57,695 bases of DNA from Fibrobacteria bacterium (GTDB lineage Bacteria; Fibrobacterota; Fibrobacteria; UBA11236), in NCBI GenBank assembly GCA_025360005.1, contig JANYDA010000031.1:1-57695 (forward strand), written 5' to 3'. The position numbers and the translations under genes are program-made. Position 1 is the first letter of the stretch. The number at the start of each line of letters is the position of its first letter. This document shows positions 6,601 to 57,365 of this stretch, piece by piece. The notes below the pieces were generated by a model. That model saw only the letters and a program-made list of their open reading frames with translations, did not search any database and was not told where the DNA came from.

Positions 6601-9403
6601 TCTTCTCAAAGCGCATGCCTATTGGGAAATGAAGCGCGTGGACGTGGATCTGGTCATGCTGAATGAAAATCCTTCCGAGTCTTATCTGCAATCCCAGCAG
6701 AACGAGTTGGAAGGCCTGCTGCGCATGCGCCATGCGGGCCAGGCAACCCGGGGCGGGGTCTTTTTGCTGCGCCGGGACGCCATCCAAAAGGAACAGCTGC
6801 TGCTGCTGCAGGCGTCCGCCCGCGCGGTACTCGGCAGCCGGCGCGGCAGTTTGGCGGATCAGGTGATGCGCATGCGCCGCAACACCGCGCCCACCGCTCC
6901 CGTGCCCGCAAAAGCACGCGCCGCAAAAACGAGCGCGGCTTCTCCCGTGCTTCCGGCCCTGGAGTTTTTCAATGGCCTGGGCGGTTTCGCTTCGGATGGA
7001 AAGGAATACCACATCATCCTGGGCGACGGCCAATGGACGCCTGCCCCATGGATCAACGTCATCGCCAATCCGGATTTCGGATTCCTGGTTTCCGAATCCG
7101 GATCGGGATTCACCTGGTGCGGCAACAGCAGGGAAGCCAAGCTTACGCCGTGGTTCAACGATCCCGTTTCGGATCCCGGTGGCGAAGCGGTTTATCTGCG
7201 CGACCGGGATACAGGGGCGGTTTGGAGCCCAACCGCGCTGCCGATCCGCGAAGAGGGGCAGCCTTATGTCGTCATCCACGGCCAGGGGTATTCCCGCTTC
7301 ACGCATGAATCCCACGGCATTCGCCAGGAGTTGACGCAATGGGTTCCCTGGGAGGATCCGATCAAGATATCGCGCCTGATTCTGGAGAACACTTCCGATC
7401 AGCCGCGCCGTCTGGACGCGACTTTTTACGTGGAATGGGTATTGGGCGCGGCGCGCGGGCCCTCGACGCAACAGGTGCAGACCAAATCCGACGCCGCTAC
7501 GGGAGCCCTCTTCGCGGGCAATACCTGGTCCGCCGAATTCGCGGGCAGGGTTGCGTTTGCGGATCTGCAAGGCCGCCAGAGCTCATTCACATGCGACCGC
7601 GCCGAGTTCCTGGGACGCAACGGAGACCGAGCCGCACCCGCTGCCCTGTTCAAGCCGGAACCATTGTCGAACCGGGCCGGGGCGGGGATGGATCCCTGCT
7701 CGGCTTTGCAGTGCGCCCTTGTCATCCCCCCTTACGGAAAAACGGAGATCGTTTTCACCTTGGGCCAGGCTTCCCGGGAATCGGCCGCTTCCGATCTGGT
7801 CCGTAAATACCGCGCCGTCGATTTCGCGAAATCGTGGCAGGATGTAAAAGAAAAATGGGATGCCTTACTGGGCGGCGTCCGCATCCGCACCCCGGATCGC
7901 TCCCTGGATCTATTGCTGAACCGCTGGCTTCCGTACCAGACCATCGCGTGCCGGCTTTGGGCGCGTTCCGGTTTCTACCAGGCGGGGGGCGCCTATGGCT
8001 TCCGGGATCAATTGCAGGATGCGATGGCGTTCACGGTGCTGGATCCGGGCCCGGCCCGCGAACAGATTATCCGGGCCTCGGGTAGGCAGTTCCACGCCGG
8101 GGACGTGCAGCATTGGTGGCACCCGCCTTCCGGCCGAGGGGTGCGCACGCATTTTTCCGACGACAGGATCTGGCTGATCTACGCGGTGCTGCATTACCTG
8201 GAAAGCACCGGGGATGTGGGCGTCCTGGATCAGGAGACGCCTTTCCTGGAGGGTCCGGATATTCCCCCGGGCAAGGAGGACGCCTATTTCCATCCCGAGA
8301 CCTCGTCGGAATCGGCGAGCGTGTACGAGCATTGTTCGCGCGCGCTCGATCGCAGCCTGGCCGTGGGTTCGCATGGGCTGCCCTTGATGGGAAGCGGCGA
8401 CTGGAACGATGGCATGAACCGCGTGGGGCAATCCGGCAAAGGGGAAAGCGGGTGGCTGGCCTGGTTCCTGATCCCCAACCTGAAAGGGTTCGCCGACATC
8501 GCGGAATCGCGCGGGCACCGGGAACGGGCCGCGGCCTGGCGCGAAAAGGCCGAGCAGATACGCCTGGCGATGGAATCGCAGGGCTGGGACGGCGATTGGT
8601 ACCGCCGGGGGTACTTCGATGACGGGACGCCGCTGGGTTCTTCGCAGTCCCGCGAGTGCCGCATCGATTCCATCGCCCAGAGCTGGGCGGTGCTTTCGGG
8701 AGCGGCCGATCCGTCCCGCGCCCGCCAAGCCATGATCTCGGTGGAAGAGTACCTGGTCAAGCGCGAAGAGGAGCTCATCCTGCTCTTCACGCCGCCCTTC
8801 GACGTATCCAACGCCGACCCGGGGTATATCAAAGGTTACCTCCCGGGAGTGCGCGAGAACGGCGGCCAATACACGCATGCGGCGGTGTGGGTGGTGGCGG
8901 CCTTCGCCGCGCTGGGCGAAGGCAACAAGGCCGCGGAATTGTTTTCCCTCCTGAACCCCGTCAACCATGCCGGAACGCGCGCAGGCGCCCTCCGGTACAA
9001 AGTGGAGCCTTACGCCGCCGCCGCCGACGTTTATGCCGTCAGCCCGCATGTTGGACGCGGAGGCTGGACCTGGTATACCGGATCCGCGGGTTGGATGTAT
9101 CGCGCCGGCCTGGAATGGATGCTGGGGTTGCGGATTTCCGGAAAAAGATTGACCCTGCGGCCTTGCATTCCCCGCGATTGGCGCCGGTTCGAGATCAAAT
9201 TGCGGCGCGGCGCGTCGGAATATGAAATCACCGTGCTGAATCCCAACGGCCATACGCGCGGGATAGAGGCCTGCCAGGTGGACGGAGTTACCCTGGAGCG
9301 GGTGCCCGCATCTTACGGCTTGGATGACGACGGTAAAACGCACTACATCCGGGTTACCATGGGGGAGCCGCGGAGTGGATCAGAAGGAGGAGTGAACCTA
9401 TGA
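614..9403 (+). CDS. ndvB: Cyclic beta-1,2-glucan synthase (NdvB/ChvB/Cgs family)
   Basis: A 2,929-residue inner-membrane enzyme expected to polymerise UDP-glucose into cyclic beta-1,2-glucan; Agrobacterium and Brucella homologues are about 2,830-2,870 residues, so it is full length. In order: a conserved N-domain (LPKLTQGAFTGYPRVY, TIGELWAVAITLR), a GT84 glycosyltransferase with DVDTRLP near residue 625 and RQHRWARGDWQL near 778, membrane helices in about 410-455 and 815-1000, a glucoamylase-like domain (YFAHHQGMM near 1560), a carbohydrate-binding segment near 1640, and a C-terminal GH94 phosphorylase-like domain with GSGDWNDGMN near 2592 that sets chain length. The start could be GTG 614, ATG 617 or ATG 674; family alignment slightly favours 674 (MDPIRSEIFS). 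The next gene overlaps its stop by 4 bp. Confidence 0.95.
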   Translation: MMILSPLGDVNTREDARPSGMDPIRSEIFSAEHLQAYAAELAGLHKSASARSRRRGVPLLRRVEENGEALREAHRIITRAILADRSVTPAAEWLADNFYVVNVQLREIRNHLPPSYYRDLPKLTQGAFTGYPRVYAIICAYIAHTDSRLDAELLARFLQAYQRVQPLTIGELWAVAITLRVALTENLRRLADQMVGGRDARKKADRVADMLLNLRSQDAGSIAVTPEDWERSGDSPFFTAFAAQLFQRLQDQAPPHAAPLDWMDAELSRQGISAQEIIRQEHQKLAASNISVRNIITSMRLVLELDWKEFFESVSMVETVFRASPGYSEMDFASRDLYRHAVENLSRSSGKDELRVATMAVESIGQGEADDPREVGYSLIGCGRREFERGLGYRSEAREAIRRFFKAGGIWFYAGGIMAIALLFAIAGLRSLADAGLPWAAVIVPVLLALAPYSEGALALMNRIASDLSAARILPKMDFTKGIPAFSRTLVAVPSMLRDKAEVGDLIERLEVHFLANPDGDIRFALLSDWVDAPSEKMPGDEDLLAAAVAGVADLNARYAPLPDGGARFLLLHRRRTWNARDRVWMGWERKRGKLSELNRLLRGERELGFILSPDDLGRVPSGVKYVITLDVDTRLPKGAAARLAGCMAHPLNRPHFDAGKGRVTAGYGIMQPRVVPALPERGRGTFFHWVTAGECGIDPYASAISDVYQDLFGEGSFTGKGIYDVDAFEHSLRGRIPENAMLSHDLFEGVFARAGLVTDIEVLEDFPSHYQASTLRQHRWARGDWQLLPWILGSRGKGLPFLGRWKMADNLRRSLVAPCAFFSLALAWLMAPQPPVAWTAILLLALAMPFFVAAHGAILSYRSGFSLRSYLRDVEAALLQALSHYLLSIVLLAHQAWLMSDAILRTGLRLCFGRGSMLQWIAAAVAATRVHFRLPGIYRDMAGAVVLPAALLAGMFLLGRIGNLPIAAPLLALWLLSPAAALFASTPRKIRRGGMLSPEESVFLRLTALKTWRFFRDFVNEGENNLPPDNFQEDPQPVVAHRTSPTNMGLCLLSIATARDLGWLGLAETAQRLEGVLGSMGKLERYRGHFFNWYATRDARPLEPRYISTVDSGNLAGHLLALKRSCLEYMDASILSPSLEAGLADLFGLVKEAVRALPENMRAQAFGREHLLEALLALESLVIPVPVESDEWTARVSAWDAQSGSVVDLARSMAMDQKDPAFKELLGCAEFLRATLGGILRDIDAYSPWLLARSDWDALQPLPIPETRHLLDGRPSLRELESRCLAAAAELRGLPPAVQGEHEGYADTLILAGRFADGLIRSAREARAMLDRLGTLSVTAERLGLDMDFGFLEDPHRKLFSIGFRVREEQLDPGFYDLLASEARLTSFLAVAKGDVPPSHWFRLGRTLTPVGRGATLLSWSGSMFEYLMPSLVMRPPEGSLLDVACRYAVERQMEYGRDNGIPWGISEAAYSIRDLEMTYQYSSFGVPGLGLKRGLGTDLVVAPYATGLAAMIAPRSAAENLLRLRSEGAEGKYGFYDAVDYTKARLQEGSRATVVKSYFAHHQGMMLVALGDVLLGGRMRERFHSEPIIQAVDPLLQERLPKGVAIAEPNTEEAERPLPVANLIEPVLHRFNTPHEPIPRTHILSNGRYTVLITAAGSGFSRWQGQAITRWREDAVMDAYGQYFYLRDTESGHTWSAAFQPMGREPDSYSAVFAEDRVEITRRDGSLTATLEIVISPEDDAEVRRLTLENTGYRDREVEVTSYCEVVMAPQEADLAHPAFSNLFVQTEFIPGLGALLATRRPRSAGESPSWAAHVCGVEGQAVGGIQYETDRARFLGRGRTVRRPVSVVDGKPLSNTAGAVLDPVFSLRRRVRVPADGKVRISFTTLAAETREKALALADKYRETESFQRVATLAWTQAQIQLKHLGIGPDEARLYQRLANRLYYTDAALRPSPDLLAMNRKGQEGLWAFGISGDLPIVLAGFDEGGDRNLARDLLKAHAYWEMKRVDVDLVMLNENPSESYLQSQQNELEGLLRMRHAGQATRGGVFLLRRDAIQKEQLLLLQASARAVLGSRRGSLADQVMRMRRNTAPTAPVPAKARAAKTSAASPVLPALEFFNGLGGFASDGKEYHIILGDGQWTPAPWINVIANPDFGFLVSESGSGFTWCGNSREAKLTPWFNDPVSDPGGEAVYLRDRDTGAVWSPTALPIREEGQPYVVIHGQGYSRFTHESHGIRQELTQWVPWEDPIKISRLILENTSDQPRRLDATFYVEWVLGAARGPSTQQVQTKSDAATGALFAGNTWSAEFAGRVAFADLQGRQSSFTCDRAEFLGRNGDRAAPAALFKPEPLSNRAGAGMDPCSALQCALVIPPYGKTEIVFTLGQASRESAASDLVRKYRAVDFAKSWQDVKEKWDALLGGVRIRTPDRSLDLLLNRWLPYQTIACRLWARSGFYQAGGAYGFRDQLQDAMAFTVLDPGPAREQIIRASGRQFHAGDVQHWWHPPSGRGVRTHFSDDRIWLIYAVLHYLESTGDVGVLDQETPFLEGPDIPPGKEDAYFHPETSSESASVYEHCSRALDRSLAVGSHGLPLMGSGDWNDGMNRVGQSGKGESGWLAWFLIPNLKGFADIAESRGHRERAAAWREKAEQIRLAMESQGWDGDWYRRGYFDDGTPLGSSQSRECRIDSIAQSWAVLSGAADPSRARQAMISVEEYLVKREEELILLFTPPFDVSNADPGYIKGYLPGVRENGGQYTHAAVWVVAAFAALGEGNKAAELFSLLNPVNHAGTRAGALRYKVEPYAAAADVYAVSPHVGRGGWTWYTGSAGWMYRAGLEWMLGLRISGKRLTLRPCIPRDWRRFEIKLRRGASEYEITVLNPNGHTRGIEACQVDGVTLERVPASYGLDDDGKTHYIRVTMGEPRSGSEGGVNL

Positions 9404-41781: not shown

Positions 41782-43449
41782 CTAGGCAAGGATATCGTCC
41801 GGCCCATCCACCGCGGGAGCCTTATTCTTGTTGGTGATCAGGTGCAATGCCTCCAGATGCTTGCGGAATGCCTTTACGGCCCGCCCTTTCAGAGCGCGCG
41901 CGGCCAGGGGTTCGCACAACAACTTGGTGCGTATGAAAAGCCGCTCCCAGCGGGAAAGCGCGATCAGCTCGTGTTTCATCAGATAGCGGATCAATTCCCC
42001 GAAAAGGGAATTCCAGACCAGCAGGTTGATCCCGAAACCGCCCAGGAAAGCCGTGCGCGAGGCGATGATCAGATGATGTTCCTTGTTGTTCAACTGCGGA
42101 TGCTTATAGCTGGCCTTCAGCCTGCGGAACCCGATGCGCTCGTACATGGGCAGGAGTTCATCCATGGCCGATGTCAGCAGCCAATGCCGGTCGGACATCA
42201 GGAAATGCTTCAAGCCGTGTTCGAACATCCCTTGCAGCACGTCCGTGCCGCGATACTCGGGATGGATGCACAGGCGCGAGACTTCGATAAGGTTCGCCTT
42301 GGGCGGCAAAGGCACCGGATATTTCCCCCCCTGGAATCCCGCTTGGCTATCCAGTACGGTTTCTTCCGAGGTAGGGAAGGTGAATGTCAACGTACCCACC
42401 AAGCGCTCATGATGGTGCGCCATCAGGATGCGGCTCTTGCCGTCCAAGGCGGAAGCCATGTCTTCCGGAGAGGTCTCACGGGCGCGCTTGCCCGCCCCCA
42501 CGTAGGCGTCCCGGCGCAGGTAGAGGACTTCCGCATAGTCTTCCAGCGATTTCACCGAGCGGAAACGCAGGTGGCTTTTGACCTGTTGTACCCGGAACCC
42601 GGCGTCGAACAACCTGGCCGGGGTCCATTGCCGGGAAAACATGAGGAAGTCGCAGATGCCGTTGTGGAGCCGGAAGTCGATGTCGGCGCATTCCACTCCG
42701 AAGCGGATTTCTTCCGCGCTGGCCGCGTTGATCCACGCTACGCGCACACGCATGGGAAGCGATCGGTACGAGGCCAGCTCGAAGAAGAGGCGCAACTCCA
42801 TGCCCTCGAACAGCAGGATCGACTCGTCGTGGGAAAGGAAGGAGAATCCCATGTTCTTGTTGAGATCGGAAGCCTGGAGCGCGCACCAATGCCCGTAAAT
42901 GAAGGGATGCCGCACACGCGCCCGCAAGGCGAGCGACGGCGCGAGAGAAAGGCGGAATCCTTCCCGCCTTTCCAAATCGACGGCGCGGGGGAAATTCAGA
43001 TCCAACCGCCGGCAGCCGATTTTGAAACCGTCTTTCCAGTGGCTCACGTTCTTTACTTCGCACCAGACTTCAAATTCCTGGTGGGCTTCAATCCGGATCC
43101 GGACCAGGAGTTCTTCGCCTGCTGAAAGCGGAGACGATTTGGATTTGTCGTCGGGATGGGGTTGGTAAAGAATTCCGAACCCGATGGCGCTGAAATCCCA
43201 GAGTTTGACCGCGCACCAATTCTCGCCGCCCATGCGGACCGAAACGGAGACGGAGCCCAACTCCCGCTGGGAAAAACGGCTTTGGTTCCGCTTGTCCTCC
43301 TTTACGGAAGGCCGCTTTTTTTTCTTGGGTTGGCGATGGCGTTTGGATTGGGGAACCGGGCTCCAATCGCTTTCCAGGCGGGTGTTGGTTGCGGGAGCCG
43401 CCCAAGCGGCTTTCGCGGCCCCGGAATCTCCCAAAGAATTCTTGTCCAT
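41782..43449 (-). CDS. PilZ domain plus N-acyl-amino-acid-synthase-like acyltransferase (paralogue 2)
   Basis: A 555-residue protein. I use ATG 43449 (MDKNSLGDSG); starting higher would overlap the diiron gene and read a basic, low-complexity stretch. After a Lys-rich N-terminus comes a PilZ domain with RNQSR (54-58) and DFSAIG (85-90), the c-di-GMP-binding RxxxR and DxSxxG motifs, and a second PilZ-like unit (RREGFR). The C-terminal half is a GNAT-fold domain of the FeeM/NasY type (YLRRDAYVGAGK, EVSRLCIHPEYRGTDVLQ, YERIGFRRL), which in relatives joins fatty acyl groups to amino acids. Third gene of the operon 45794-41782, 19 bp after the diiron gene. Acyl donor and amine are unknown. Confidence 0.78.
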   Translation of the reverse strand: MDKNSLGDSGAAKAAWAAPATNTRLESDWSPVPQSKRHRQPKKKKRPSVKEDKRNQSRFSQRELGSVSVSVRMGGENWCAVKLWDFSAIGFGILYQPHPDDKSKSSPLSAGEELLVRIRIEAHQEFEVWCEVKNVSHWKDGFKIGCRRLDLNFPRAVDLERREGFRLSLAPSLALRARVRHPFIYGHWCALQASDLNKNMGFSFLSHDESILLFEGMELRLFFELASYRSLPMRVRVAWINAASAEEIRFGVECADIDFRLHNGICDFLMFSRQWTPARLFDAGFRVQQVKSHLRFRSVKSLEDYAEVLYLRRDAYVGAGKRARETSPEDMASALDGKSRILMAHHHERLVGTLTFTFPTSEETVLDSQAGFQGGKYPVPLPPKANLIEVSRLCIHPEYRGTDVLQGMFEHGLKHFLMSDRHWLLTSAMDELLPMYERIGFRRLKASYKHPQLNNKEHHLIIASRTAFLGGFGINLLVWNSLFGELIRYLMKHELIALSRWERLFIRTKLLCEPLAARALKGRAVKAFRKHLEALHLITNKNKAPAVDGPDDILA

Positions 43450-43468
43450 GTCCTTCAATCCGGCCGGA

Positions 43469-44218
43469 TTACTTTCCAGCGCCTTTTTTTTCCGGCGGGT
43501 TCCCGTCCGCCTTGGCGGCGCGCGTTTCCCGCTTACCGATGCTGCTCCAGTCTCGTGCCCGCGTCTCATCGTCCAGAATACCCTGCAACATGAGCGCATG
43601 CAGGCGAGCGGTGCCTTTGGCGCAGTGGATTACGGCCTGAATATCCTCTTCCGTTTCCAGGCTCCCAAGCAGATATCCCTCCAGCCATTTGGTATGCGTC
43701 ACATCCACTTTTGCATGCTCGTCCAGAAAAGTCATCGCGGTCGCGGGGACGCCCATGGCGGTAAGCGCCTTCAGGATGCTTTCGCCCTTGCCGGCCGGCA
43801 GCATTTCCAAGTGATAAATGTAACCCAAGTATCCAACCGGATTGGAATGCTGCACCTGATAGATTGCGAAAGCGAGCATGGCTTCCGTAGTGGGGAGTGG
43901 GCGGCCCGCCGGGATGCCGGATACGTCCTCGCCCAGGCTGCGCAGGTCGTCCAGCGCCATATTATGGTGGCCGTATTCGGCCAGGCAATGGCGGAAAATT
44001 TTCGGCGATAAGTCCCGTTTGTTGCCTTTCAAGTGCCCGGACATCAAGGCGAAGGATTGTGGGTTTTCCCGCACATTGTAGTAGATTTCCCGCAGCAGGA
44101 TCTTGTAATGATCCAAGGTCAATGAGCCTTCCACCAAGCGCCGGAAAAAATCACCTTGGTATAAATCGCCCAGGGAGGCTTCCCACTCTTTTTTGATCCT
44201 ATCGATCATCTTTCCCAT
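43469..44218 (-). CDS. Haem-oxygenase-like diiron oxidase/oxygenase (iron-containing redox enzyme)
   Basis: A 249-residue all-helical protein of the haem-oxygenase-like diiron (HDO) group, which includes UndA (fatty acid to terminal alkene), SznF and BesC. ATG 44218 is an estimate; ATG 44209 is possible. Candidate metal ligands in family order: Glu44 (LLREIYY), Glu81 and His84 (AEYGHHNM), Glu138 (YHLEML), His168 (DEHAKVD), Asp172 and His175 (VTHT). Its start overlaps the stop of the upstream acyltransferase by 20 bp and its stop is 19 bp from the next one, so it is embedded in that operon. The substrate is probably a fatty acyl or N-acyl compound; this is inference. Confidence 0.75.
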   Translation of the reverse strand: MGKMIDRIKKEWEASLGDLYQGDFFRRLVEGSLTLDHYKILLREIYYNVRENPQSFALMSGHLKGNKRDLSPKIFRHCLAEYGHHNMALDDLRSLGEDVSGIPAGRPLPTTEAMLAFAIYQVQHSNPVGYLGYIYHLEMLPAGKGESILKALTAMGVPATAMTFLDEHAKVDVTHTKWLEGYLLGSLETEEDIQAVIHCAKGTARLHALMLQGILDDETRARDWSSIGKRETRAAKADGNPPEKKGAGK

Positions 44219-45794
44219 CCATGGATATTCTTTTCTGCAACAATTCCCGGAATTCCCTTTCCAACCCCGCATCCAACCATTTGCGGGTGAACCCGGAGAA
44301 CAGGGAATAGAACGCCACCCTGGCCTTGAGCCAGGAGCCCAACTGCAAGTGCCCGCGCTCGATCAATTCACGCACCAGGGAGCCGAAGAAATAATTCCAC
44401 GCGAACGGCCGCATCCGCACCCCCGCGATCAAACTGTTCCTATGCAGCAGGATCAGGTGGTGCTCCAGGTTCCCCAGCTCCTTGATGAGCACGGAGGCGC
44501 CCACCTTCTTGAAGCCTATCCGGCGGTACAGCGGCCACAATTTGGCGGTGGTAAAGGTGAGGATCCACTTCCGATCGGAAAAGAGCATGCAACGCGCGAT
44601 TTGCTCGAACATGCCCTGGATCAGATCCCCGCCGCGGTAATCGGAATCCGTACAAAGGGAAATCACCTCCATGATGGAGTCCTTGGGAGGCACCCGCACC
44701 GGGAATTCCGCGCCCGGGAAACATCCTTCCGTCCTGAGCGTGGTCCCCTCCGCCCCCGCGAAGCTTAAAGCCACGGAAGCCACCAATTGGTCCCCATGGA
44801 AAGCCGCCAGCAGGCGGCTGTGGGAATCGAAGGCGGTTGCGATGGGATCCGGGTCGGCGTGGGGAGAAGCCTTCCCGGCCTTTGCATACGCATCCTTCCG
44901 CAGCTTGAGGATGGCTTCGTATTCCTCCTGGGTGGAAACGAAACGGAAGCGCGTCTGATCCTTGAACCGTTTCAGCCGCAGGCCGAAGTCCGATAACCCG
45001 CTGGGTTTGCAAAGCTCCGCTTGCACGAAATGCTCGCCGATGGCGTTAGAGAGATCGAAGGAAAGATCCGATTCATGGATCGCGAAAAGGACGCGCCCGG
45101 CAAGGCCCGCGCGGATCCAAGCGATGGAACCGGTGCATTTCCCTTGCGAGTCCAGAGGCAGCTCGATGTCCAAGGTGACGCGGGCCCCTCCCAACAACAA
45201 CAGCCCCGCATCGGAGGATTCAAATACCATGGTTGCCTTGGGCCCAATCCCCACCATCCTGGCTTCCGACCACTCCTTATACAGGTAAGGGTTCAGGACC
45301 TTGGCCGTAACGGGCCGGATGGTATCCTGCAAATAGCCGGGCGGAAACTCCGGTTCCTGCTCGCCGTTGGCGAAGGGCAGCAGATCCAGTCGGCTCAGGC
45401 CTATCCGCATCCCTTTTTCCACCCGGGTGGCATTCTCGATGAGGCAAGGCAGCTGGAAACTTTTCCCGGGCTGGGCGTCTTTACCGCCGAGCCCGCCCAG
45501 TCGCAGCTCTATGCGATCTCCGGGAACGGAAAACTCGGATGCGATGCCGCCCGGCTGGTACAGGATCCCAAAACCGAAAGTGGAGTAGTCCCATATCCGC
45601 ACTGGTACCCACTCGTTCCGCTTCCGGGATCGGATCCATGCCGGGATCCGTTCTATTTCCCGCTCCACCGTGCGCGGCGCATGCCGCAACGCGCTCGCAT
45701 CGGAAGGGCGCCAGGATTCACGGGGTAACTTCAACGGATCCAATGGATAGTTGGTGCCGGGCGCTATGGGTATGGCTTGCTGCGGTTGGTTCAT
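44199..45794 (-). CDS. PilZ domain plus N-acyl-amino-acid-synthase-like acyltransferase (paralogue 1)
   Basis: A 531-residue paralogue of the protein at 41782-43449, sharing its architecture. The PilZ motifs are REIER (45-49) and DYSTFG (69-74), followed by a second PilZ-like module and a C-terminal GNAT/FeeM-type domain (KLRKDAYAKAGK, EVISLCTDSDYRGGDLIQ, YRRIGFKKV). It is the first gene of the three-gene operon, 95 bp from the divergent histidine kinase. The two paralogues diverge strongly outside the motifs, so they probably have different substrates or form a heteromer. Both binding motifs are intact, so control by c-di-GMP is likely. Confidence 0.78.
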   Translation of the reverse strand: MNQPQQAIPIAPGTNYPLDPLKLPRESWRPSDASALRHAPRTVEREIERIPAWIRSRKRNEWVPVRIWDYSTFGFGILYQPGGIASEFSVPGDRIELRLGGLGGKDAQPGKSFQLPCLIENATRVEKGMRIGLSRLDLLPFANGEQEPEFPPGYLQDTIRPVTAKVLNPYLYKEWSEARMVGIGPKATMVFESSDAGLLLLGGARVTLDIELPLDSQGKCTGSIAWIRAGLAGRVLFAIHESDLSFDLSNAIGEHFVQAELCKPSGLSDFGLRLKRFKDQTRFRFVSTQEEYEAILKLRKDAYAKAGKASPHADPDPIATAFDSHSRLLAAFHGDQLVASVALSFAGAEGTTLRTEGCFPGAEFPVRVPPKDSIMEVISLCTDSDYRGGDLIQGMFEQIARCMLFSDRKWILTFTTAKLWPLYRRIGFKKVGASVLIKELGNLEHHLILLHRNSLIAGVRMRPFAWNYFFGSLVRELIERGHLQLGSWLKARVAFYSLFSGFTRKWLDAGLEREFRELLQKRISMDGKDDR

Positions 45795-45824
45795 GTGAAA
45801 TCAGATGAATCTTAAGGAGTGGCA

Positions 45825-45917
45825 GTGAAAAAAGTCAAATTCCTAACGGCAACGGGGAAGTTGCTACCTTCACGGAGGGTTGCGCGCATATGGAAAAAGT
45901 CTACTCCAACAAGCTGA
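45825..45917 (+). CDS. Possible 30-residue leader peptide before the histidine kinase
   Basis: GTG 45825 has a stronger ribosome-binding site (AAGGAG, spacing about 6) than the kinase start itself. It encodes MKKVKFLTATGKLLPSRRVA and ends at 45917, 28 bases inside the kinase gene in another frame. Such overlap would couple or throttle kinase translation. It may equally be chance. Confidence 0.25.
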   Translation: MKKVKFLTATGKLLPSRRVARIWKKSTPTS

Positions 45918-48046
45918 TATTCTCCTTGGCCCGATTTCTGGAACAGAAATTCGGGAAGGCGAAAATTGATGAAATCCTTGAAAAAGCCAAGATAGATCGC
46001 CTGAAGCTGGCGGATCCTTCCGGGTTCCAGACGGCAGAGGAGGCGGATGCCCTCACCCGCACGGCGATGGAACTGACCGGGGAAAAGGACATCACCTATC
46101 TGGCCGGCAGAAACCTTCCCAAGGACCTGGGCAAGGCGGGCGGCTTTATCATCGGTGTCACGTCCCCTGCCTTCATCATGAAAACCCTGTGCCATATAGA
46201 GGGCCGCATGGCCCTGAAAACCATCAATCACACCCAGAAGATCGGGCGCAACCGCTATCAAGTCGACATCACTTTCAAAGATGGTTTTAAAGAACAGGAT
46301 TATGTATGCCGCCACCGCATCGGTGTGTATGAATCCGTGCCTTTATTCTTCGATCTCCCCTTCGCGAAAGTGGAGCATCCGCAATGCGCTTTCAAAGGCG
46401 GGGAACATTGCCGGTATGAGATCCAATTCCCGGAATCCCAATTCTCGATCTACAACCGCATTTTCCAATTCTTGGTTCTCTTGGCCCTGGCAAGCTTGTG
46501 CATCTGGTTCCGCAAGACCTCGCCCCCCTCATTCTTGTATGCCAGCTTCCTCGCTTCCAGCCTGGGTTTCCTGAGCCTGGCGCGTTACCGCAGCTTGGGC
46601 GCCAAAAAATCGCTGGAATGGTCCCTGATCGCCAACGAAGGCTTGAGCAAGCAAAACCAGCAATTGGAAAACAACAATCTCCAGATCAATTCCCTCCAGG
46701 ATCTCTCCACCTTGCTGCTCAATTCCATGCGCGTGCAGCAAATCTGCGACAAGGTGGTATTCATGCTGGTGCAGCAATTCCGTTTCGGCTCCAGCCAAAT
46801 CTGGCTCCTGGACGATAAGGGCGAATACCTGGGATGCAGGAAAGCGATGGGATATTCGGAATCCCTTTTGGCGTTCATCATCAACACGCGTTTCAAGATA
46901 GGGGAGAACTGGGACAACCCTTATGGCCTGCTGGTGCAGACGTTGGAGAAAAAGCAAACCCTGCTGGTGAACGATCCGGAAGAAGTCTACTCCAGGGTGA
47001 CGCCCCGTACGCGGGAATTCCTGGAGGCGTTGAAAATCTCTTCCTTCATCATGACGCCCTTGTTCCACGGCGATAGGCCGCTGGGCATTCTGGCGGCCGA
47101 ATACCATTCCGGGGAAAAGATGCAGAACCAGGACAAGCTCCTGTTCCAATCGATTTCCAATATCGTCGCCAACGCCATCGTGAAAGCGGAGCTCTTCACG
47201 CAAATGGAATGGAAGATCGAAGAGCGGACCCGGCAATTGGAAGCCGCTTCCAAGCAGCTGCTGGCCGCCCAGGAAATGGCCATCCAAAGCGAGAAGCTTT
47301 CTTCGCTCGGCCAGATGGCCGCGGGCGTGGCGCATGAGATCAATAACCCGCTGAATTTCCTCATCAACATCCTGCCGGACGTGCGCCGGGATGTGGAAGG
47401 CCTGGAGAAGATCCGTGAGCTGGCCGCGCAGGGCGGGCTGAGCGAAGCCGCCTTGCAGGCCATCAAAGCCGTGGACGAGCAATACGATCTGGAAACGCAT
47501 TTGTCCGAGAAGAACTTCGTCTTCGAGAAAATCCAGAAGGCCTTGGACAAAAGCACCCGCATCGCCAACAGCCTGAAGGTCTTTTCCCGCTCTTCCGCCA
47601 AGGAGGCGATCACCCGGGAAAAGTTCGGGGACATGATGCGGGAAGTGATCGATCTGGTGCCGCGGAAAATCATCGGCGACACGCGCATCCTGGTCGAAAT
47701 CCCCGGCAGCCTGGATTGGATGGTGAACAAGAACGAGATGGAGCAGGCGTTCCTGGCCATCATCAACAACGCCATCGACGCCATGAACCAGAAGGGCGAG
47801 CTTGCGATCCGGGGCGAGGATGCGCCGGAGGAGATCAGGATTTCCTTTCAGGACCAAGGCCCGGGGATCTCGGAAGAGATTATCAAACGTATCTTCGACC
47901 CGTTCTACACAACCAAACCGCCCGGTAAGGGGACGGGGTTGGGATTGACCATCGCCTTGGAGATCGTCAAAAAGTACGGCGGCGTATTGGGCGTCCAATC
48001 CCAGCCGGGCCAGGGAACGACCTTTTCGATCCGTTTCAAAAAATAG
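45890..48046 (+). CDS. Sensor histidine kinase with V4R/HNOB-like N-domain, membrane helices and GAF
   Basis: A 718-residue kinase. Residues about 1-185 form a soluble ligand-binding domain ending in AFKGGEHCRYEIQF, a pattern I know from V4R/haem-NO-binding-like sensor domains; specificity is unknown. Two membrane helices follow (about 193-235), then a GAF domain (about 270-430), a coiled coil, HisKA with MAAGVAHEINNPLN (phospho-His near 483) and a HATPase domain (INNAIDAM, DQGPGISEEI, GKGTGLGLTIALEI). No receiver is attached. It is divergent from the PilZ/acyltransferase operon, which it may regulate. ATG 45890 has GGAGGG ten bases upstream. Confidence 0.85.
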   Translation: MEKVYSNKLIFSLARFLEQKFGKAKIDEILEKAKIDRLKLADPSGFQTAEEADALTRTAMELTGEKDITYLAGRNLPKDLGKAGGFIIGVTSPAFIMKTLCHIEGRMALKTINHTQKIGRNRYQVDITFKDGFKEQDYVCRHRIGVYESVPLFFDLPFAKVEHPQCAFKGGEHCRYEIQFPESQFSIYNRIFQFLVLLALASLCIWFRKTSPPSFLYASFLASSLGFLSLARYRSLGAKKSLEWSLIANEGLSKQNQQLENNNLQINSLQDLSTLLLNSMRVQQICDKVVFMLVQQFRFGSSQIWLLDDKGEYLGCRKAMGYSESLLAFIINTRFKIGENWDNPYGLLVQTLEKKQTLLVNDPEEVYSRVTPRTREFLEALKISSFIMTPLFHGDRPLGILAAEYHSGEKMQNQDKLLFQSISNIVANAIVKAELFTQMEWKIEERTRQLEAASKQLLAAQEMAIQSEKLSSLGQMAAGVAHEINNPLNFLINILPDVRRDVEGLEKIRELAAQGGLSEAALQAIKAVDEQYDLETHLSEKNFVFEKIQKALDKSTRIANSLKVFSRSSAKEAITREKFGDMMREVIDLVPRKIIGDTRILVEIPGSLDWMVNKNEMEQAFLAIINNAIDAMNQKGELAIRGEDAPEEIRISFQDQGPGISEEIIKRIFDPFYTTKPPGKGTGLGLTIALEIVKKYGGVLGVQSQPGQGTTFSIRFKK

Positions 48047-51853: not shown

Positions 51854-52084
51854 ATGAAAACAGCCAGCTTTACCGAGTTCCGCAAGCATGCCGCCGAGTT
51901 CCTGGATGAGGTTGAAAAGGGCGAAGTAGTCCGGATCTTGAGGCACGGGAAAGCCGTTGCCGATATCAGCCCTGTCCTTGTGGAGGATAAGCCTTCCTGG
52001 AAAAAGACGCCGCCCCAGCTTCCGTTGAGCGGCGTCTCCCTGTCCAAGGCCATCCTGCAAAACCGGAAAGACGCGGCCAGGTGA
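51854..52084 (+). CDS. Phd/YefM-type antitoxin
   Basis: A 76-residue protein with the Phd fold at the N-terminus (SFTEFRKHAAEFLDEVEKGE, VVRILRHGKAVADISPV) that binds DNA, and a C-terminal tail that neutralises the toxin. AAGAGGAAA lies before ATG 51854. It overlaps the PIN toxin by 4 bp, so the toxin is only made after the antitoxin. Confidence 0.92.
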   Translation: MKTASFTEFRKHAAEFLDEVEKGEVVRILRHGKAVADISPVLVEDKPSWKKTPPQLPLSGVSLSKAILQNRKDAAR

Positions 52085-52497
52085 AGGTTTTCTTCGACTC
52101 CTCGGCTTTGGTCAAAAGGTATGTCCCCGAAAAGGGCACGGATGCGGTCCTGGAGCTCTGCGACGAAGCCAGTGAGCTGGGGCTATCCGTAATCTGCTAC
52201 CCGGAGATCATCTCCGCTCTGTGCCGGCTCCGTCGAGAAAAGCAAATCGAGGGATCTCAATACGTGACCGCAAAACAGGGCATCGCCCAGGATCTGCGGG
52301 ATGCGGCCTTATGCAACATCACGGAGACGGCGGTGCTTCAATCCATCCTCCTTCTTGAGGAGAACACCTTACGGGCCATGGATGCCTTCCACATCGCCGC
52401 CGCTTTGGAATGGGAGGCCGATCTCTTCGTCTCCAGCGACTTGCATCAGATCAAGGCTGCGAAAAAGGCCGGGCTTGCGGTTCGGTCTGTTCCTTAA
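52081..52497 (+). CDS. vapC: PIN-domain toxin (VapC family)
   Basis: A 138-residue ribonuclease toxin starting at GTG 52081. The conserved acidic residues of PIN domains are present: Asp6 (VFFDSSALVKRY), Glu near 42 (CYPEIISAL), Asp near 102 (RAMDAFHIAAAL) and Asp near 120 (LFVSSDLHQIKAA). Homologues cut initiator tRNA or other RNAs. Likely intact and functional. Confidence 0.92.
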   Translation: MKVFFDSSALVKRYVPEKGTDAVLELCDEASELGLSVICYPEIISALCRLRREKQIEGSQYVTAKQGIAQDLRDAALCNITETAVLQSILLLEENTLRAMDAFHIAAALEWEADLFVSSDLHQIKAAKKAGLAVRSVP

Positions 52498-53021
52498 GTG
52501 CCTCCCGGTGGGGTGGCGCGCGGAGAGCCCGGCCCGCGTGGGGGCGGGAGGTGGAATCCCAGGCCAGGGAATCTACCTTTGAGACCGTGATTCAGGAACA
52601 GACCCAAAACCTCTACCCGACTTCCCTTACGGAGAAGTGTTCACCAATCCCTTCTTCCTCTTCGCCACCTGCTTCACCGTGAAGCTGAGCCCTGTAGCGC
52701 CTGAGTTACACTAACCCGAGTGCCTGACCACTCCATCCATCGGCTCGCGGAGCTGACCCCGCGAGCCTTCAAGCTTCGCTCAATACCCGCCTGATCCAAT
52801 AATCACGATGCGCCCCTTGAACAAGGGTGGGACGTGGAACGGTTACGAACCTTATGCCTATATCCATTGGCTCAAACCACTTTTCAGGACCGGCGAATTC
52901 GTATACCTTGCGGACACCGCCATATTCTTTTCGGTTGGACATTGGGACTTCCTGAAATAGGCAACGTACTTGCCATCAGACTGTCCACAAAATCCTGGGA
53001 ACTCCAAGGATTAGCAGTGGG
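52498..53021. other. Gap with transposon-end remnant
   Basis: No gene is seen in these 524 bp. The section 52715-52847 is the second copy of the 133-bp element. The rest has no recognisable transposase remains on either strand. Confidence 0.5.
52715..52847. repeat. 133-bp dispersed element, copy B
   Basis: Same length as copy A at 9-141, about 90% identical, with the CCCTTG-AA-CAAGGG stem-loop and the GGCTCG/CGAGCC arms intact. Unlike copy A it has no ATPase remnant beside it, so it is a solo copy. Thirteen differences are spread along its length, so the two copies separated some time ago. Confidence 0.75.
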
Positions 53022-53690
53022 TTACTCCACGTTCATACCTTTCAGGAACATTTCCAGGTATTTTTCCCCTTTCCCCTCAAAATCCACAGGCTTGTTAATG
53101 AAATCGTAAAATCTGTTGGATCGCAACGAACGGTACATCAGGTCTTCATCGCTATTTGGATTTCCAGTAATAAGAATAAATCTCATCAAGGGTTTGGCTT
53201 TTTGGACCTCGTCACATAGTTCATTGCCGCTCAGCTTAGGCATAACTTCGTCGGTAATAACAAGCGCTACGTCGTCGCTGGCTTTGATGAATGCCAGGGC
53301 ATCGATGGGACTTGTGAAAGTTTTCAGGTTAATGCGCTTGCCGAATTTCCTTTTGAAAACGAATATGTTTTCTTCCTCGTCGTCCACATATACTACGACT
53401 GGATTTTTCTTTCGGGAAGCCAGAGATAATTTGATTTGCTTTAGCAAATCGCCCAAACTCATGGTATTCAAATCTGTAGGGTTCAGCAAGTCCCTTAACT
53501 TTAAATCCTTACCGCCCAGGCGGTCTTCTAGTTCTGCAACTACTTCTGGTAATGTGGTAATATCCAGGCCCAAATCGTCCAGCGCCATTCCTTCATCCAA
53601 TTTTTCTGGCAAACCCCTATAAGACGGATCTTTGAAGGACAGTCCGGCCACAATTTCCCTTATAATTCCGTATAGTGTAGTTGTTTCCAT
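53022..53690 (-). CDS. ACP-like domain fused to response-regulator receiver (paralogue 1)
   Basis: A 222-residue cytoplasmic protein. Residues about 5-88 have acyl-carrier-protein pattern (GMALDDLGLDITTLPEVVAE, then LEDRLGG and MSLGDLLKQI), but the phosphopantetheine Ser of the usual GxDSL is Ile44, so it cannot carry an acyl group. Residues about 97-220 are a complete receiver: Asp103/104, phospho-Asp147 (LVITDEVMPKLSG), Thr175 (ILITGN) and Lys200 (FINKPVDF). It begins 8 bp after the alpha-oxoamine synthase stop, hence one operon. No output domain: it may regulate the synthase by contact. GC is low (about 40%). Confidence 0.75.
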   Translation of the reverse strand: METTTLYGIIREIVAGLSFKDPSYRGLPEKLDEGMALDDLGLDITTLPEVVAELEDRLGGKDLKLRDLLNPTDLNTMSLGDLLKQIKLSLASRKKNPVVVYVDDEEENIFVFKRKFGKRINLKTFTSPIDALAFIKASDDVALVITDEVMPKLSGNELCDEVQKAKPLMRFILITGNPNSDEDLMYRSLRSNRFYDFINKPVDFEGKGEKYLEMFLKGMNVE

Positions 53691-53698
53691 GATTCTCC

Positions 53699-54982
53699 TT
53701 AAGCACTTGCCGATGGAACGATACCGAGTCTTCCGCCGACGTCAATGAGGATGGCTAGTGTGCGATCGATTTGATCATACGTATGTGATGCATTTGTTAT
53801 GAATCGTAATCGGCCTTCATTGAGTTTAACGGCAGGGAATGCGATTGTCACCGAGAATACGCCATTTTCATAAAGGTTTCTACCAAAAGCGAGCAACGTC
53901 TTCGTTTCTCGTACATAAATGGGAATGATTGGGCTTTGGCTTTTTCCCAGGTCGAATCCCGCAGCGCGAAGGCCCTTGCGGAAATAGGCCGTCTTTTCAT
54001 GTAAGCCGCGAATCAAAGCTGGATCCGACTCGATTTCATCAAGGCTTGCCAGAACTGCGCCGGCATCCGCGGGGGAGATGCAGGCTTGGAAAATATAAGA
54101 GTTGGAATGCCATGACATTAGGGTACAGTATTTTTTTTTGGTTGAAACGAATCCGCCTATGGAAGCGGTCGCTTTGGACAACGTCGACATGATAAAGTCG
54201 ACATCATCCGTAACACCTTGTTCATAGCAATAACCGCGGCCACCTTCGCCGTAAAATCCAAATGAGTGTGCTTCGTCCACATACAGATAAAATTTGTACT
54301 TCTTCTTAAGAGCAGCGATCTCTCTCAATGGGGCTAGATCTCCGCTCATGGAATAAGCCGATTCGACAACTACTAAAATATTCTGGAATTTGTCCTGGCA
54401 GCGCTGAAGCTTCGCCTCAAGATCGGTCAAATTGTTGTGTTTGAAGGCAAGCCACTGTTTCCCAGAAAGTTTGCATCCATCAATGATGCTCGCATGGGAT
54501 TGATGATCGAAAAGGATGATGTCGTTCTTGCCAGGAATGGCGGAAATCGCTCCCAGGTTGACTGAGTACCCGGTAGGAAATAAAAGGGTCCGTTCCTTTC
54601 CTGTCATCGCATTGATGCGTGATTCAATGGCTTTGTGAAGGGTGTTCATGCCCCCCGACATGGCAGAGGTTCCCGCCCCGGTTCCGTAACGTTCCACTAT
54701 TTCTTTTGATTTGGCGATGACTCTGGGATTTCTGTTTAAGCCCAGGTAGTGATTGACACACCAAAGAATACATTCGTTTTTTTTTCCGGTTCCTTCGGTG
54801 ATCACCAAAGCTTGGGAGTCGCTCCCGAATTCAGTATAGCGATCATTGGAGTAAAGGCCCTCTATGTTCTGCAAATCCTTAACGGTTTGCATGGCATCGG
54901 CGATACTATCGAAATCGGTTACTCCTTCGTCCACCAGCTTGCGCATCACATTTCCGATTACCATCGAAGTATTTAGTTCCAT
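53699..54982 (-). CDS. Alpha-oxoamine synthase (CqsA/SPT/KBL-type PLP enzyme)
   Basis: A 427-residue PLP enzyme that condenses an amino acid with an acyl thioester. Motifs: NHYLGLNRNPRVI, YGTGAGTSAMSGG (99-111), LLFPTGYSVNLGAIS, DHQSHASIIDG (159-169), YVDEAHSFGFYGEGG (234-248) and the PLP-binding Lys270 (STLSKATASIGGF). The fold includes 8-amino-7-oxononanoate synthase, serine palmitoyltransferase and the autoinducer synthases CqsA/LqsA. There are no biotin or sphingolipid genes nearby, and the neighbours are a signalling regulator and a CqsS-like receptor, which points to a signal molecule. A sphingolipid-type product remains possible. Confidence 0.85.
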   Translation of the reverse strand: MELNTSMVIGNVMRKLVDEGVTDFDSIADAMQTVKDLQNIEGLYSNDRYTEFGSDSQALVITEGTGKKNECILWCVNHYLGLNRNPRVIAKSKEIVERYGTGAGTSAMSGGMNTLHKAIESRINAMTGKERTLLFPTGYSVNLGAISAIPGKNDIILFDHQSHASIIDGCKLSGKQWLAFKHNNLTDLEAKLQRCQDKFQNILVVVESAYSMSGDLAPLREIAALKKKYKFYLYVDEAHSFGFYGEGGRGYCYEQGVTDDVDFIMSTLSKATASIGGFVSTKKKYCTLMSWHSNSYIFQACISPADAGAVLASLDEIESDPALIRGLHEKTAYFRKGLRAAGFDLGKSQSPIIPIYVRETKTLLAFGRNLYENGVFSVTIAFPAVKLNEGRLRFITNASHTYDQIDRTLAILIDVGGRLGIVPSASA

Positions 54983-55001
54983 TGGGTCACCTTTTCAGAT
55001 T

Positions 55002-55034
55002 GAGATAGTATCTCTTTCCGGCATGAAAAGCCGG
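55002..55034. promoter_or_regulatory. Palindrome and hairpin in the divergent synthase/receptor promoter region
   Basis: GAGATA-G-TATCTC (55002-55014) is a perfect 13-base palindrome, followed by CCGGC-atgaaaa-GCCGG (55018-55034). Both lie in the 150-bp gap between the divergent alpha-oxoamine synthase and cyclase genes, where one regulator could control both. Confidence 0.45.
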
Positions 55035-55132
55035 TTACTGGAGAAAATTGAGGCGCAGAAGTGGCCGATGGATTTTTTTTCGTCCACCCCGTAAAATCGC
55101 AATGAACCGAATCCAACCAGAGTCCGAGGAAG

Positions 55133-56650
55133 ATGCGAAAGTTCCACCTCAACACCGATTACGCTTTTTTCCAAAAAGTGATCCCCGTACTGGGTGGATT
55201 CGGGTTGTTCGGGCACGTGACATTCTATTTCATCCTGAAATACGGCTTCTCTTACTGGGAATCTTGGCAGTTGAGATTGAGCGCCGCGCTCATTCACGTA
55301 GCCTTGATATTCTTCCCAAGGGAAAAATCGCTTAGCATCATTCAGAAGATGTATTTCGAAACGGCGATTGCCCTTACCCTTCCCGCTTTGTTCACGGTGC
55401 TTTTCCTTAAAAACGGATGCAATGTCTATTGGTATTCTTCCTTAATCTTCGCGGGGTTATTGCACGGTCTGTTGACTAAACCTTTTCTTTTTATCTGGAC
55501 ATTTCCAGCCGCGGCCGGACTGGCGACAATGTTTTTCACAAGGATTCATCCTGGAGAGCATCAATTGGTGATGCAAAGTCTGCAAGCGCAGTTGGTCGCT
55601 TATTTCCTGGGATTGATTACTACCGGTATCAAAACCACCATGGAAATATCTCATGAGAAAATCATGGTAACCAAGATGGCGCTGGCAAAGGCTGAAAATG
55701 ATTTACTCACAGCCGAGGTGACTCGTAAGGCCTACGATGAGCTTAAGAAGCGCGAAGAGCTTATCCGCCTCTACGTCCGCCCTTCCCTGGTCGAAGAGAT
55801 CCGCGCCGGTAAGGACCCGTCCAAATCCGATCCGGTAATCAAGAACCTCTCCATCATGTTCTGCGACATCCGCGAATTCACCAAGCTCACCGAAACCTTG
55901 ACCCCCTATGAACGCCAGATGTTCCTCAACCAGTACTTCTCCATGATGACCCGTCCAATCGTCGACAACGGGGGAGAAGTCGACAAGATCATGGGGGATT
56001 GCGTCATGAGCATTTTCCCGGACGGCGCCAAGGCCGTGAAAGCCGCGGTCGCGATGCGCCTGGAATTGCAGAAGTTCAACGAGGCCATGTTCGCCGCCGA
56101 AAGCCCCATGATCCGCAACGGCATAGGCATCGCCAAGGGCGACGTGATGCAGGGGAACTTCGGTTCCTTTGAAAAGCTGGACCGTACCGTCATCGGCGAA
56201 GCGGTCAACATCGCCTCCCGTCTGGAGTCCAAGACCAAGATGTACAACCTGGAAGTGGTCGTTACCGAGGACGTCATCAAGGATTTGCCTTTGGGTTCCG
56301 CCCACTACCGTTGGATAGATAATGTCCAGGTCAAGGGATCCACCCGCCATCTCAAATTGTTCGAGATCTACGGGCATCAGCCTGCGGAAGTCCGGCAGTA
56401 TAAGGACGATACCCGGGACTTGCTTGAGAAGGCATTGACCATCTATTTCCAAAAGGGTTTCAAGGACGCTTCCCGGCTGTTCCGCGCCATGCTGGAACAG
56501 GTGCCGCCCCATCGTCTTATCGCCAACGATTTGATGGACAACATCCTGCACTATTACATCGCGCATTGCGACGCCTGGATCAACAATCCCAACGGCACGT
56601 GGGAGGATATCCAGCGTTGGGAAGGCGTTCATGTGTTTACGGAAAAGTGA
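55133..56650 (+). CDS. Six-helix CqsS-like membrane sensor fused to class III nucleotide cyclase
   Basis: A 505-residue protein; ATG 55133 has GAGGA upstream. Six membrane helices (about 16-39, 47-61, 72-92, 97-114, 118-135, 150-168) follow the plan of CqsS, the CAI-1 receptor. Trp100 and Ser103 (VYWYSS) sit where I recall the ligand-contacting Trp104 and Ser107, and the last helix runs into ISHEK as in CqsS. A coiled linker (170-215) leads to a class III cyclase: metal Asp near 244 (FCDIREF), Lys/Asp near 286-290 (DKIMGDCVM), and the N-x3-R transition-state pair (NIASRLE). The Lys and Thr (DRTVIGE) suggest ATP, hence cAMP. A TPR-like tail ends the protein. GC jumps at about 55.72 kb. Confidence 0.8.
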   Translation: MRKFHLNTDYAFFQKVIPVLGGFGLFGHVTFYFILKYGFSYWESWQLRLSAALIHVALIFFPREKSLSIIQKMYFETAIALTLPALFTVLFLKNGCNVYWYSSLIFAGLLHGLLTKPFLFIWTFPAAAGLATMFFTRIHPGEHQLVMQSLQAQLVAYFLGLITTGIKTTMEISHEKIMVTKMALAKAENDLLTAEVTRKAYDELKKREELIRLYVRPSLVEEIRAGKDPSKSDPVIKNLSIMFCDIREFTKLTETLTPYERQMFLNQYFSMMTRPIVDNGGEVDKIMGDCVMSIFPDGAKAVKAAVAMRLELQKFNEAMFAAESPMIRNGIGIAKGDVMQGNFGSFEKLDRTVIGEAVNIASRLESKTKMYNLEVVVTEDVIKDLPLGSAHYRWIDNVQVKGSTRHLKLFEIYGHQPAEVRQYKDDTRDLLEKALTIYFQKGFKDASRLFRAMLEQVPPHRLIANDLMDNILHYYIAHCDAWINNPNGTWEDIQRWEGVHVFTEK

Positions 56651-56651
56651 A

Positions 56652-57365
56652 TCAAAAGAAGTCCCCTGACAGCACCTTATTCATCGACTCGAAATACTCC
56701 TCGCCCTGCTTGTCGAAATCCAACGGCTTGTTGATGAAATCGTAGAAGCGTCCGTGGCGCAGGGAGCGGTGGACCAGGTTTTCGTCGCCGCCGGGATTGC
56801 CCGTGATGAGGATGAATTTCAGGAACGGTTTGTATTGGTGGACCAGATCGCAAAGATGGTTGCCGCTCATGCCGGGCATGGACTCGTCCGTCAGTACCAA
56901 AACCACGTCCGGGCTTTCCTTGATGAATGCCAGGGCTTCCTCAGGTTTGGAAAAGGTGCGGAGGTTGATGCGCTTGGCATAGCGCCGTCGGAACACGAAA
57001 AGGTTTTCCTCTTCGTCATCCACGTAAACCACCACGGGATTTTGGATGCCATGGTGCAGGCTGGATCGGATATGGCCGATCATATCGCCGATGGTCGCAT
57101 AGCGGTTCTGTCCCGCGGCCGTGCCGCCGAAGGCTTTCTGCATGCGGTACATCAATTCCACATTGAGCGCGATGCCGCCCAAGCGATGGCGCAGTTCCTT
57201 CGCAAGCTCGGTGATGTTGGCGTCGGTAACATGCAGGGATGCGAGGCTGGTTTCCGCGGTGATGGGATCCGGAAGAGGCGCGAAGGAAGGGTTCTCGCGG
57301 GATAACCTTGAGAATACTTCCCGTAAAATGGCGAGTACGCGATCGGGATGCACAGTTATCCCCAC
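56652..57365 (-). CDS. ACP-like domain fused to response-regulator receiver (paralogue 2)
   Basis: A 237-residue paralogue of the protein at 53022-53690, with the same plan: an N-domain of about 100 residues with ACP-like helices (ANITELAKELRHRLGG, TIGDMIGHI) but no GxDS motif, then a complete receiver (VVVYVDDEEENLF, phospho-Asp160 in LVLTDESMPGMSG, LKFILITGNPGG, FYDFINKPLDF). It converges on the cyclase with a one-base gap. The receivers are highly alike while the N-domains differ, so each may dock with a different partner. Composition is normal for the chromosome, unlike paralogue 1. Confidence 0.75.
   Translation of the reverse strand: MGITVHPDRVLAILREVFSRLSRENPSFAPLPDPITAETSLASLHVTDANITELAKELRHRLGGIALNVELMYRMQKAFGGTAAGQNRYATIGDMIGHIRSSLHHGIQNPVVVYVDDEEENLFVFRRRYAKRINLRTFSKPEEALAFIKESPDVVLVLTDESMPGMSGNHLCDLVHQYKPFLKFILITGNPGGDENLVHRSLRHGRFYDFINKPLDFDKQGEEYFESMNKVLSGDFF

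Follow-up and report, generated by a model that had tools for sequence, protein, structure and literature searches.

A predicted natural CqsS-type receptor cyclase and its adjacent candidate ligand synthase in Fibrobacteria

Introduction

In alpha-hydroxyketone quorum sensing, known as CqsA/CqsS in Vibrio and LqsA/LqsS in Legionella, an enzyme of the alpha-oxoamine-synthase family is encoded beside a receptor with a six-transmembrane-helix (6TM) sensor and a histidine kinase output. The ligand of a CqsS-type receptor is an alpha-hydroxyketone or the amino precursor of one. In a published survey, CqsS-type modules sit on histidine kinases (PMC4821796). The same module has been placed on a cyclase by engineering. 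In a fusion of CqsS residues 1–181 to Rv1625c residues 218–443, CAI-1 stimulates and the joining point matters (Beltz, Bassler and Schultz 2016, PMC4821796). Engineered CqsS-cyclase fusions are still described as proof-of-concept work with synthetic cyclases (PMC12414865). Whether class III adenylate cyclases use their six-helix membrane anchors as receptors is a long-standing question, and support for this idea leans on these engineered fusions. In our search of open-licence papers, no naturally occurring cyclase of the CqsS type was reported.

Variable sensing parts on a conserved output are known from the specificity polymorphism of peptide systems. The agr locus of the staphylococci combines a conserved transducer with signal and sensor parts that vary. 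In comQXPA of Bacillus, the membrane domain of ComP is far more variable than its cytoplasmic domain (PMC4008528).

Here we describe a locus at the right end of a 57,695-bp stretch of DNA from a Fibrobacteria bacterium (the window). An earlier note had read its receptor gene as a domain-level chimera, made when an imported synthase-plus-sensor module was joined to a resident cyclase. The more important result, in our judgment, is the apparently natural CqsS-type receptor cyclase itself, with a candidate ligand synthase adjacent; it outweighs the chimera question.

Results

Organization of the locus

The receptor gene (55133–56650, forward strand) encodes 505 amino acids. Its divergently transcribed neighbour encodes a putative signal synthase of type T1 (53699–54982, reverse strand), a PLP enzyme assigned to the alpha-oxoamine-synthase family (PF00155). 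By the ORF coordinates, a divergent intergenic region of 150 bp (54983–55132) separates the two genes. Next to the synthase lies RR1 (53022–53690, reverse strand), an ORF of 222 amino acids with a helical N-terminal domain of ~90 residues and a C-terminal receiver (PF00072, E 3.1e-10). The AF2 model of RR1 matches receiver-domain folds in the PDB, and residues D103/D104, D147, T175 and K200 are conserved. No further output domain beyond the receiver is found in RR1. On the other side of the receptor gene is RR2 (56652–57365, reverse strand), a receiver protein paralogous to RR1 (PF00072, E 1.5e-10). RR2 belongs to the conserved block of the locus and is 85% identical to its copy in the congener G002. 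RR1, the synthase and the sensor half of the receptor form a variable AT-rich block (52900–55726).

Residues 1–95 of both RR1 and RR2 are helical and by eye resemble an acyl carrier protein without the serine; this likeness has no library match, and the Foldseek rows are mostly receiver-domain matches. A small ORF at 52081–52497, PIN-domain-like by eye, lies directly left of the low-GC segment. Far to the left, 614–9403 encodes a 2929-aa cyclic beta-glucan synthase-like protein that has GH94 and glucoamylase-like domains.

Sensor and cyclase of the receptor

The AF2 model of the receptor has a mean pLDDT of 83.7. The first five helices of the sensor span residues 14–38, 45–59, 69–93, 98–114 and 117–138, and the sixth begins at residue 143 and runs on as one long helix to residue 214. 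The 6TM sensor, here of type S1, occupies residues 1–190 (55133–55702, forward strand) and is encoded at low GC. By profile comparison this N-terminal half is a homologue of the Vibrio CqsS membrane sensor, because a profile of 14 sensors finds V. campbellii CqsS over CqsS residues 17–158 at 47.4 bits and E 5e-13, against at most 10.9 bits in 2000 shuffles. A tblastn search with a congener sensor against 72,556 plasmid records gives one weak match, the V. campbellii CqsS gene adjoining CqsA. The record is unannotated there, and we take the gene to be CqsS from its sequence, the adjacent synthase and what is known of the family. The sensor profile has no match among PDB sequences, and the sensor has none in NCBIfam.

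The cytoplasmic part of the long helix 143–214 forms the linker (55703–55774, forward strand). By blastn, site likelihoods, the GC3 split and the AF2 model, it carries both the composition step and the exchange junction described below. The histidine kinase output of CqsS-type receptors, which usually comes with a receiver, is absent, and PF00211 is the sole domain found after the sensor (63.8 bits, cut-off 21.9, E 2e-17). This catalytic domain covers residues 237–404 (55841–56344, forward strand). The catalytic set D245, K285, D289, T352, N359 and R363 is complete and invariant in 14 homologues. From what is known of class III cyclases, D245 and D289 are the metal residues, K285 and T352 the substrate residues, and N359 and R363 the transition-state residues. 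The nearest solved folds to the cyclase domain are those of OaPAC and bPAC, with Z 20–23 and 28–33% identity; the matches listed in the structure comparison of the receptor are all to the cyclase domain and do not cover the 6TM fold. As judged from its residues and fold, the C-terminal half is a class IIIb adenylate cyclase, for which cAMP production is predicted. It ends in a conserved helical tail at residues 412–505 (56366–56647, forward strand), identified by alignment and by AF2 helices at 418–494. The window genome has eight matches to cNMP-binding domains.

Base composition

The earlier note had placed a GC breakpoint inside the receptor gene at 55.70–55.75 kb, and had grouped the synthase and RR1 with the sensor as low in GC and RR2 as higher. 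Sliding windows and codon-resolved GC bear this out. GC is 41–53% across 52.9–55.8 kb, 53–60% in the cyclase half from 55.7 kb on and 50–62% over RR2, so the composition is not smooth and steps at ~55.7 kb. Resolved by codon, residues 1–190 of the receptor have GC 0.454 and GC3 0.574, and residues 205–505 have GC 0.556 and GC3 0.780. The position is also accurate, since the optimal single split falls at codon 210 for GC3 (z = 4.99) and at codon 193 for total GC.

A 458-kb sample of the window genome (GC 0.601) serves as reference. The segment at 52.9–55.75 kb, at ~46% GC, is the lowest of its 2.8-kb size in this sample; of 985 segments, no other has 46% GC or less (mean 0.602, s.d. 0.032). The cyclase half, at 55.6% GC, is still under the genome mean of 60%. 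Just three of 190 sampled genes in this genome show a bigger GC3 step than the receptor, and at least two of these look to us like ORFs with over-extended starts. Membrane amino-acid bias alone was considered as a cause and ruled out: the step is carried by GC3, and four control genes, in which a multi-TM N-terminal half precedes a soluble half, reach only z 0.8–1.9.

The step is not unique to the window: each of the genus's 11 receptors has a GC3 rise, of +0.01 to +0.22 overall and +0.10 to +0.22 for the copies at this locus, termed A. The locus as a whole behaves in the same way. In the five loci compared (window, G001, G002, G004 and G005, with G001 measured for RR1 and the cyclase half only), the block of RR1, synthase and sensor has GC 0.436–0.523 versus 0.555–0.587 for the block of cyclase and RR2. 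The genome samples in this comparison have GC 0.57–0.63. Since the AT-rich block recurs in all five loci, its low GC is no sign of a recent joining in the window.

Age of the fusion and histories of its two halves

The comparison within the genus covers six genomes, the window species (G000) and five congeners (G001–G005). Full-length receptor orthologues are present in all five congeners, with 63–74% identity over residues 3–505. The fusion of sensor and cyclase is also found in three genomes of family f7 in the same phylum (sensor 17–32%, cyclase 36–42% identity). The fusion thus long predates the window species and was not made here.

The two halves of the receptor differ sharply in what they resemble. 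In the cyclase half, the window receptor shares 92% identity with G002_A and 89% with G004_A, as core genes would predict. Sensor identity to the same two copies is 26% and 24%, while it is 57% to both G005_A and G003_A. Two sensor types can be distinguished: S1 in the window, G001, G003 and G005, and S2 in G002_A and G004_A. S2 is also present in G000_B, the second receptor of the window genome (contig C31), with which the sensors of G002_A and G004_A share 41–42% identity.

Separate phylogenies of the two halves, as the earlier note had proposed, give different trees. The free trees of sensor and cyclase reject each other (dlnL 143 and 102). In constrained AU tests, a tree that unites the A copies of the window, G002 and G004 is rejected by the sensor data (dlnL 110), and the cyclase data reject both the S2 grouping (dlnL 48) and the S1 grouping (dlnL 55). 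With the six A-locus receptors alone, the sensor data fail to reject the species tree (p-AU 0.13), so the case for exchange hinges on the paralogue G000_B. These trees indicate that the sensor and cyclase halves have different histories within the genus.

DNA comparison locates the junction. By blastn, G002 and G004 both become similar to the window abruptly at 55,727, at residue 199 in the linker helix, and the similarity extends through RR2 at 82–84%. With G005 and G003 it continues unbroken into the sensor. The difference in site likelihood has its turning point (minimum) at residue 202, in the same helix.

Of the domain-level chimera, then, the incongruent halves, the linker junction at 55,727 and the agreement of cyclase and RR2 with the species tree stand. 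That the window gene itself is the product of an import is not supported, given that the fusion is common to five congeners and family f7 and that the window species is the outgroup of the S2 pair.

Direction of the sensor exchange

Three flank genes (2494 aa) give the species order ((G002,G004),G000),G001 (AU 0.99 versus 0.021 and 0.009). The alaS tree leaves the trio of window, G002 and G004 undecided (63%), and rpoB and rplB are not found in every congener as species-tree markers. Because the window species branches outside G002 and G004 in the flank-gene tree, a single S1-to-S2 replacement in the ancestor of these two suffices, and it is most simply there that the sensor was replaced. Parsimony on the flank-gene tree puts the change on the G002/G004 branch and requires none on the window branch. 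Within S1 the sensor tree matches the species order. In the window copy, sensor and cyclase are probably still paired as they were in the ancestor.

Alternatively, the window species may have recently taken up the AT-rich block of synthase, RR1 and sensor and recombined it into a resident cyclase at ~55.73 kb. The block is the most AT-rich stretch sampled, with 45.8% GC versus 49–52% in the full blocks of G002, G004 and G005 and 60% in the genome. Between the window and G004, the silent sites of synthase and RR1 are saturated (0.06 and 0.00, against 0.17–0.33 for most orthologues of the pair); the block thus coalesces deeper than the species, and an older exchange on the window side could therefore have taken place. 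However, the flank genes at 41.7–48 kb have equally low silent-site values between the same two genomes, G005 has matching genes, order and sensor type, and the GC contrast is found in every lineage. Together with the species-ordered S1 tree and a parsimony that leaves the window branch unchanged, this makes a recent import unlikely. The earlier claim of a chimera is thus partly supported: the GC step appears to be a true compartment border at which sensors were exchanged in the genus, and a recent import into the window gene is needless.

Two particular sources for the window sensor were also considered and rejected. Recent gene conversion with the paralogue on contig C31 does not fit, as identical residues of the two cyclase halves agree in only 46% of their third codon positions. 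Nor does an import from the G003/G005 lineage after the split, with the window sensor outside that pair (99%) and silent sites without excess similarity.

The flank genes at 41782–48046 are of uneven identity among the congeners (42–83%). G004 has a second, diverged copy of part of this set beside its third receptor, possibly another block that is exchanging.

The synthase slot

The T1 synthase is, by sequence comparison, a putative signal synthase of the alpha-oxoamine-synthase family that is nearest to serine palmitoyltransferases (SPTs). It scores 342.7 and 332.1 bits against NCBIfam SPT models with cut-offs of 640 and 500, and 192.7 bits against the CqsA/LqsA model NF005526 with a cut-off of 428, all under the cut-off. 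In the PDB it matches the SPT 3a2b at E 7.5e-76 and CqsA 2wk8 at E 1.7e-32, and it is 23% identical to V. campbellii CqsA. Three synthase subfamilies occur in this slot across the genus: G004 and G005 have T1, like the window, whereas G002 has the PRK07505-like T2 and G001 has T3. The T3 enzyme has the alpha-hydroxyketone synthase model NF005526 as its best NCBIfam match (299.9 bits, cut-off 428) and groups with V. campbellii CqsA with 99% support. The tree of the four T1 synthases does not settle their branching order. The locus thus varies in its parts: one conserved cyclase block is combined with two types of sensor and three of synthase. G004 pairs T1 with S2, and the synthase and sensor are not strictly tied as the imported module of the earlier note would have them.

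Since the T1 enzyme is nearer to serine palmitoyltransferases than to CqsA, in the PDB as in NCBIfam, it could make a sphingolipid-like membrane lipid instead of a signal, and the receptor could sense the state of the membrane. We find this reading quite doubtful, as every curated SPT cut-off is missed by a wide margin, the G001 enzyme in the same slot groups with CqsA, and the sensor is a CqsS homologue encoded divergently next to the synthase.

Gene content in the genus and the phylum

The arrangement of RR2, receptor A, synthase and RR1 in the window, including their orientation, recurs in G004 and G005, and G005 repeats the entire gene set of the window with the same sensor type. G001, G002 and G004 share with the window the flank genes that adjoin the locus. 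G003_A is without an adjacent synthase. The MAGs with close relatives belong to the Fibrobacterota.

In G001, two RR1 genes enclose remnants of a receptor and a truncated T1 synthase (L044, ~7770–8360), and a different contig carries an intact pair of T1 and RR1. In G003 a small contig (L144:1–1400) carries an eroded, internally deleted receptor beside an RR2 fragment. To judge from their sequence, these look like scars of repeated replacement or decay. A hybrid histidine kinase with 12 HAMP matches, GAF and three receivers lies near RR2 in G002, G004 and G005 (L043:11779–18465, also at one end of L045 and L041). It is a candidate kinase for the orphan receiver proteins; the window contig stops short of that position.

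The divergent partner of the receptor cyclase in family f7 is a PilZ-FeeM protein (L126:2196–3371, L125:2227–3447 and L127:2180–3355). Pfam on the L126 copy identifies it as PF21926, an N-acyl amino acid synthase, another kind of acyl-signal synthase by the same receptor architecture. In G012, of the same class, a hybrid histidine kinase (L128:291–1982) weakly matches the sensor profile (E 2.6e-9), nearer to the Vibrio arrangement.

Discussion

We interpret this as a quorum-sensing-like locus in which a conserved cAMP output is combined with an exchangeable signal and sensor block, and put the probability of this reading, including the predicted ligand and cAMP output, at roughly two in three. 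The synthase would use an acyl thioester and an amino acid to produce a lipophilic signal. This would bind within the membrane to the 6TM sensor, a homologue of that of CqsS, and the long helix after TM6 would transmit the change to the homodimeric class IIIb adenylate cyclase and alter cAMP. The two receiver proteins may tune or relay the response, and the eight cNMP-binding-domain matches could read cAMP. The output block of cyclase half and RR2 would be inherited along with the species, while the AT-rich block of RR1, synthase and sensor half would evolve faster, with one synthase or sensor type giving way to another from lineage to lineage. The two compartments would then meet at the GC step at 55.7 kb. 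This step coincides with the junction where a different sensor appears to have been attached to the same cyclase before G002 and G004 diverged, probably through recombination within the conserved linker. That the sensor is simply faster-evolving and under weaker codon selection than the cyclase, with no exchange, is improbable: fast membrane anchors above conserved catalytic domains are a known pattern of adenylate cyclases (PMC4821796), the GC step is in all orthologues and the six-taxon sensor data do not reject the species tree, but the G002_A and G004_A sensors are far closer to G000_B than to the window orthologue under cyclase halves of 89–92% identity, both single-history trees are rejected and three different synthase subfamilies occupy one slot.

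A more specific form of the quorum-sensing-like reading is natural quorum sensing directly through a ligand-gated 6TM adenylate cyclase, with the ligand from the adjacent enzyme. Recombination within the signalling helix would have let species exchange their signal and sensor types over a conserved cyclase. For this form we consider the chances evenly balanced. The fusion known from engineering is apparently natural here, a candidate ligand synthase is adjacent and sensors seem to have been exchanged at a definable point; therefore ligand, coupling helix and specificity are directly testable.

Like CqsA/CqsS and LqsA/LqsS, the locus has a homologous 6TM sensor, an alpha-oxoamine-synthase-family enzyme beside the receptor and receivers nearby, and in G001 the slot holds a synthase grouping with CqsA itself. 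Unlike in these systems, the predicted output is a class III adenylate cyclase rather than a histidine kinase, and the window synthase is SPT-like and under the curated family cut-off. The nearest solved cyclase domains, OaPAC and bPAC, differ in having a light-sensing BLUF domain in place of a membrane receptor. With agr and comQXPA the locus appears to share a variable signal-producing and sensor part adjoining a conserved transducer, although synthase and sensor types do not vary jointly in G004; in contrast to them, the synthase would make a non-peptide signal, a cyclase replaces the histidine kinase and the variation lies between species, not within one. The engineered CqsS-Rv1625c is similar in that a CqsS-type 6TM sensor sits on a class III cyclase and is joined in the helix after TM6, at CqsS residue 181 there and at residue 199, the exchange junction, in the window receptor. 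The window receptor differs from it in being natural, of class IIIb instead of IIIa, and in having a synthase gene adjacent.
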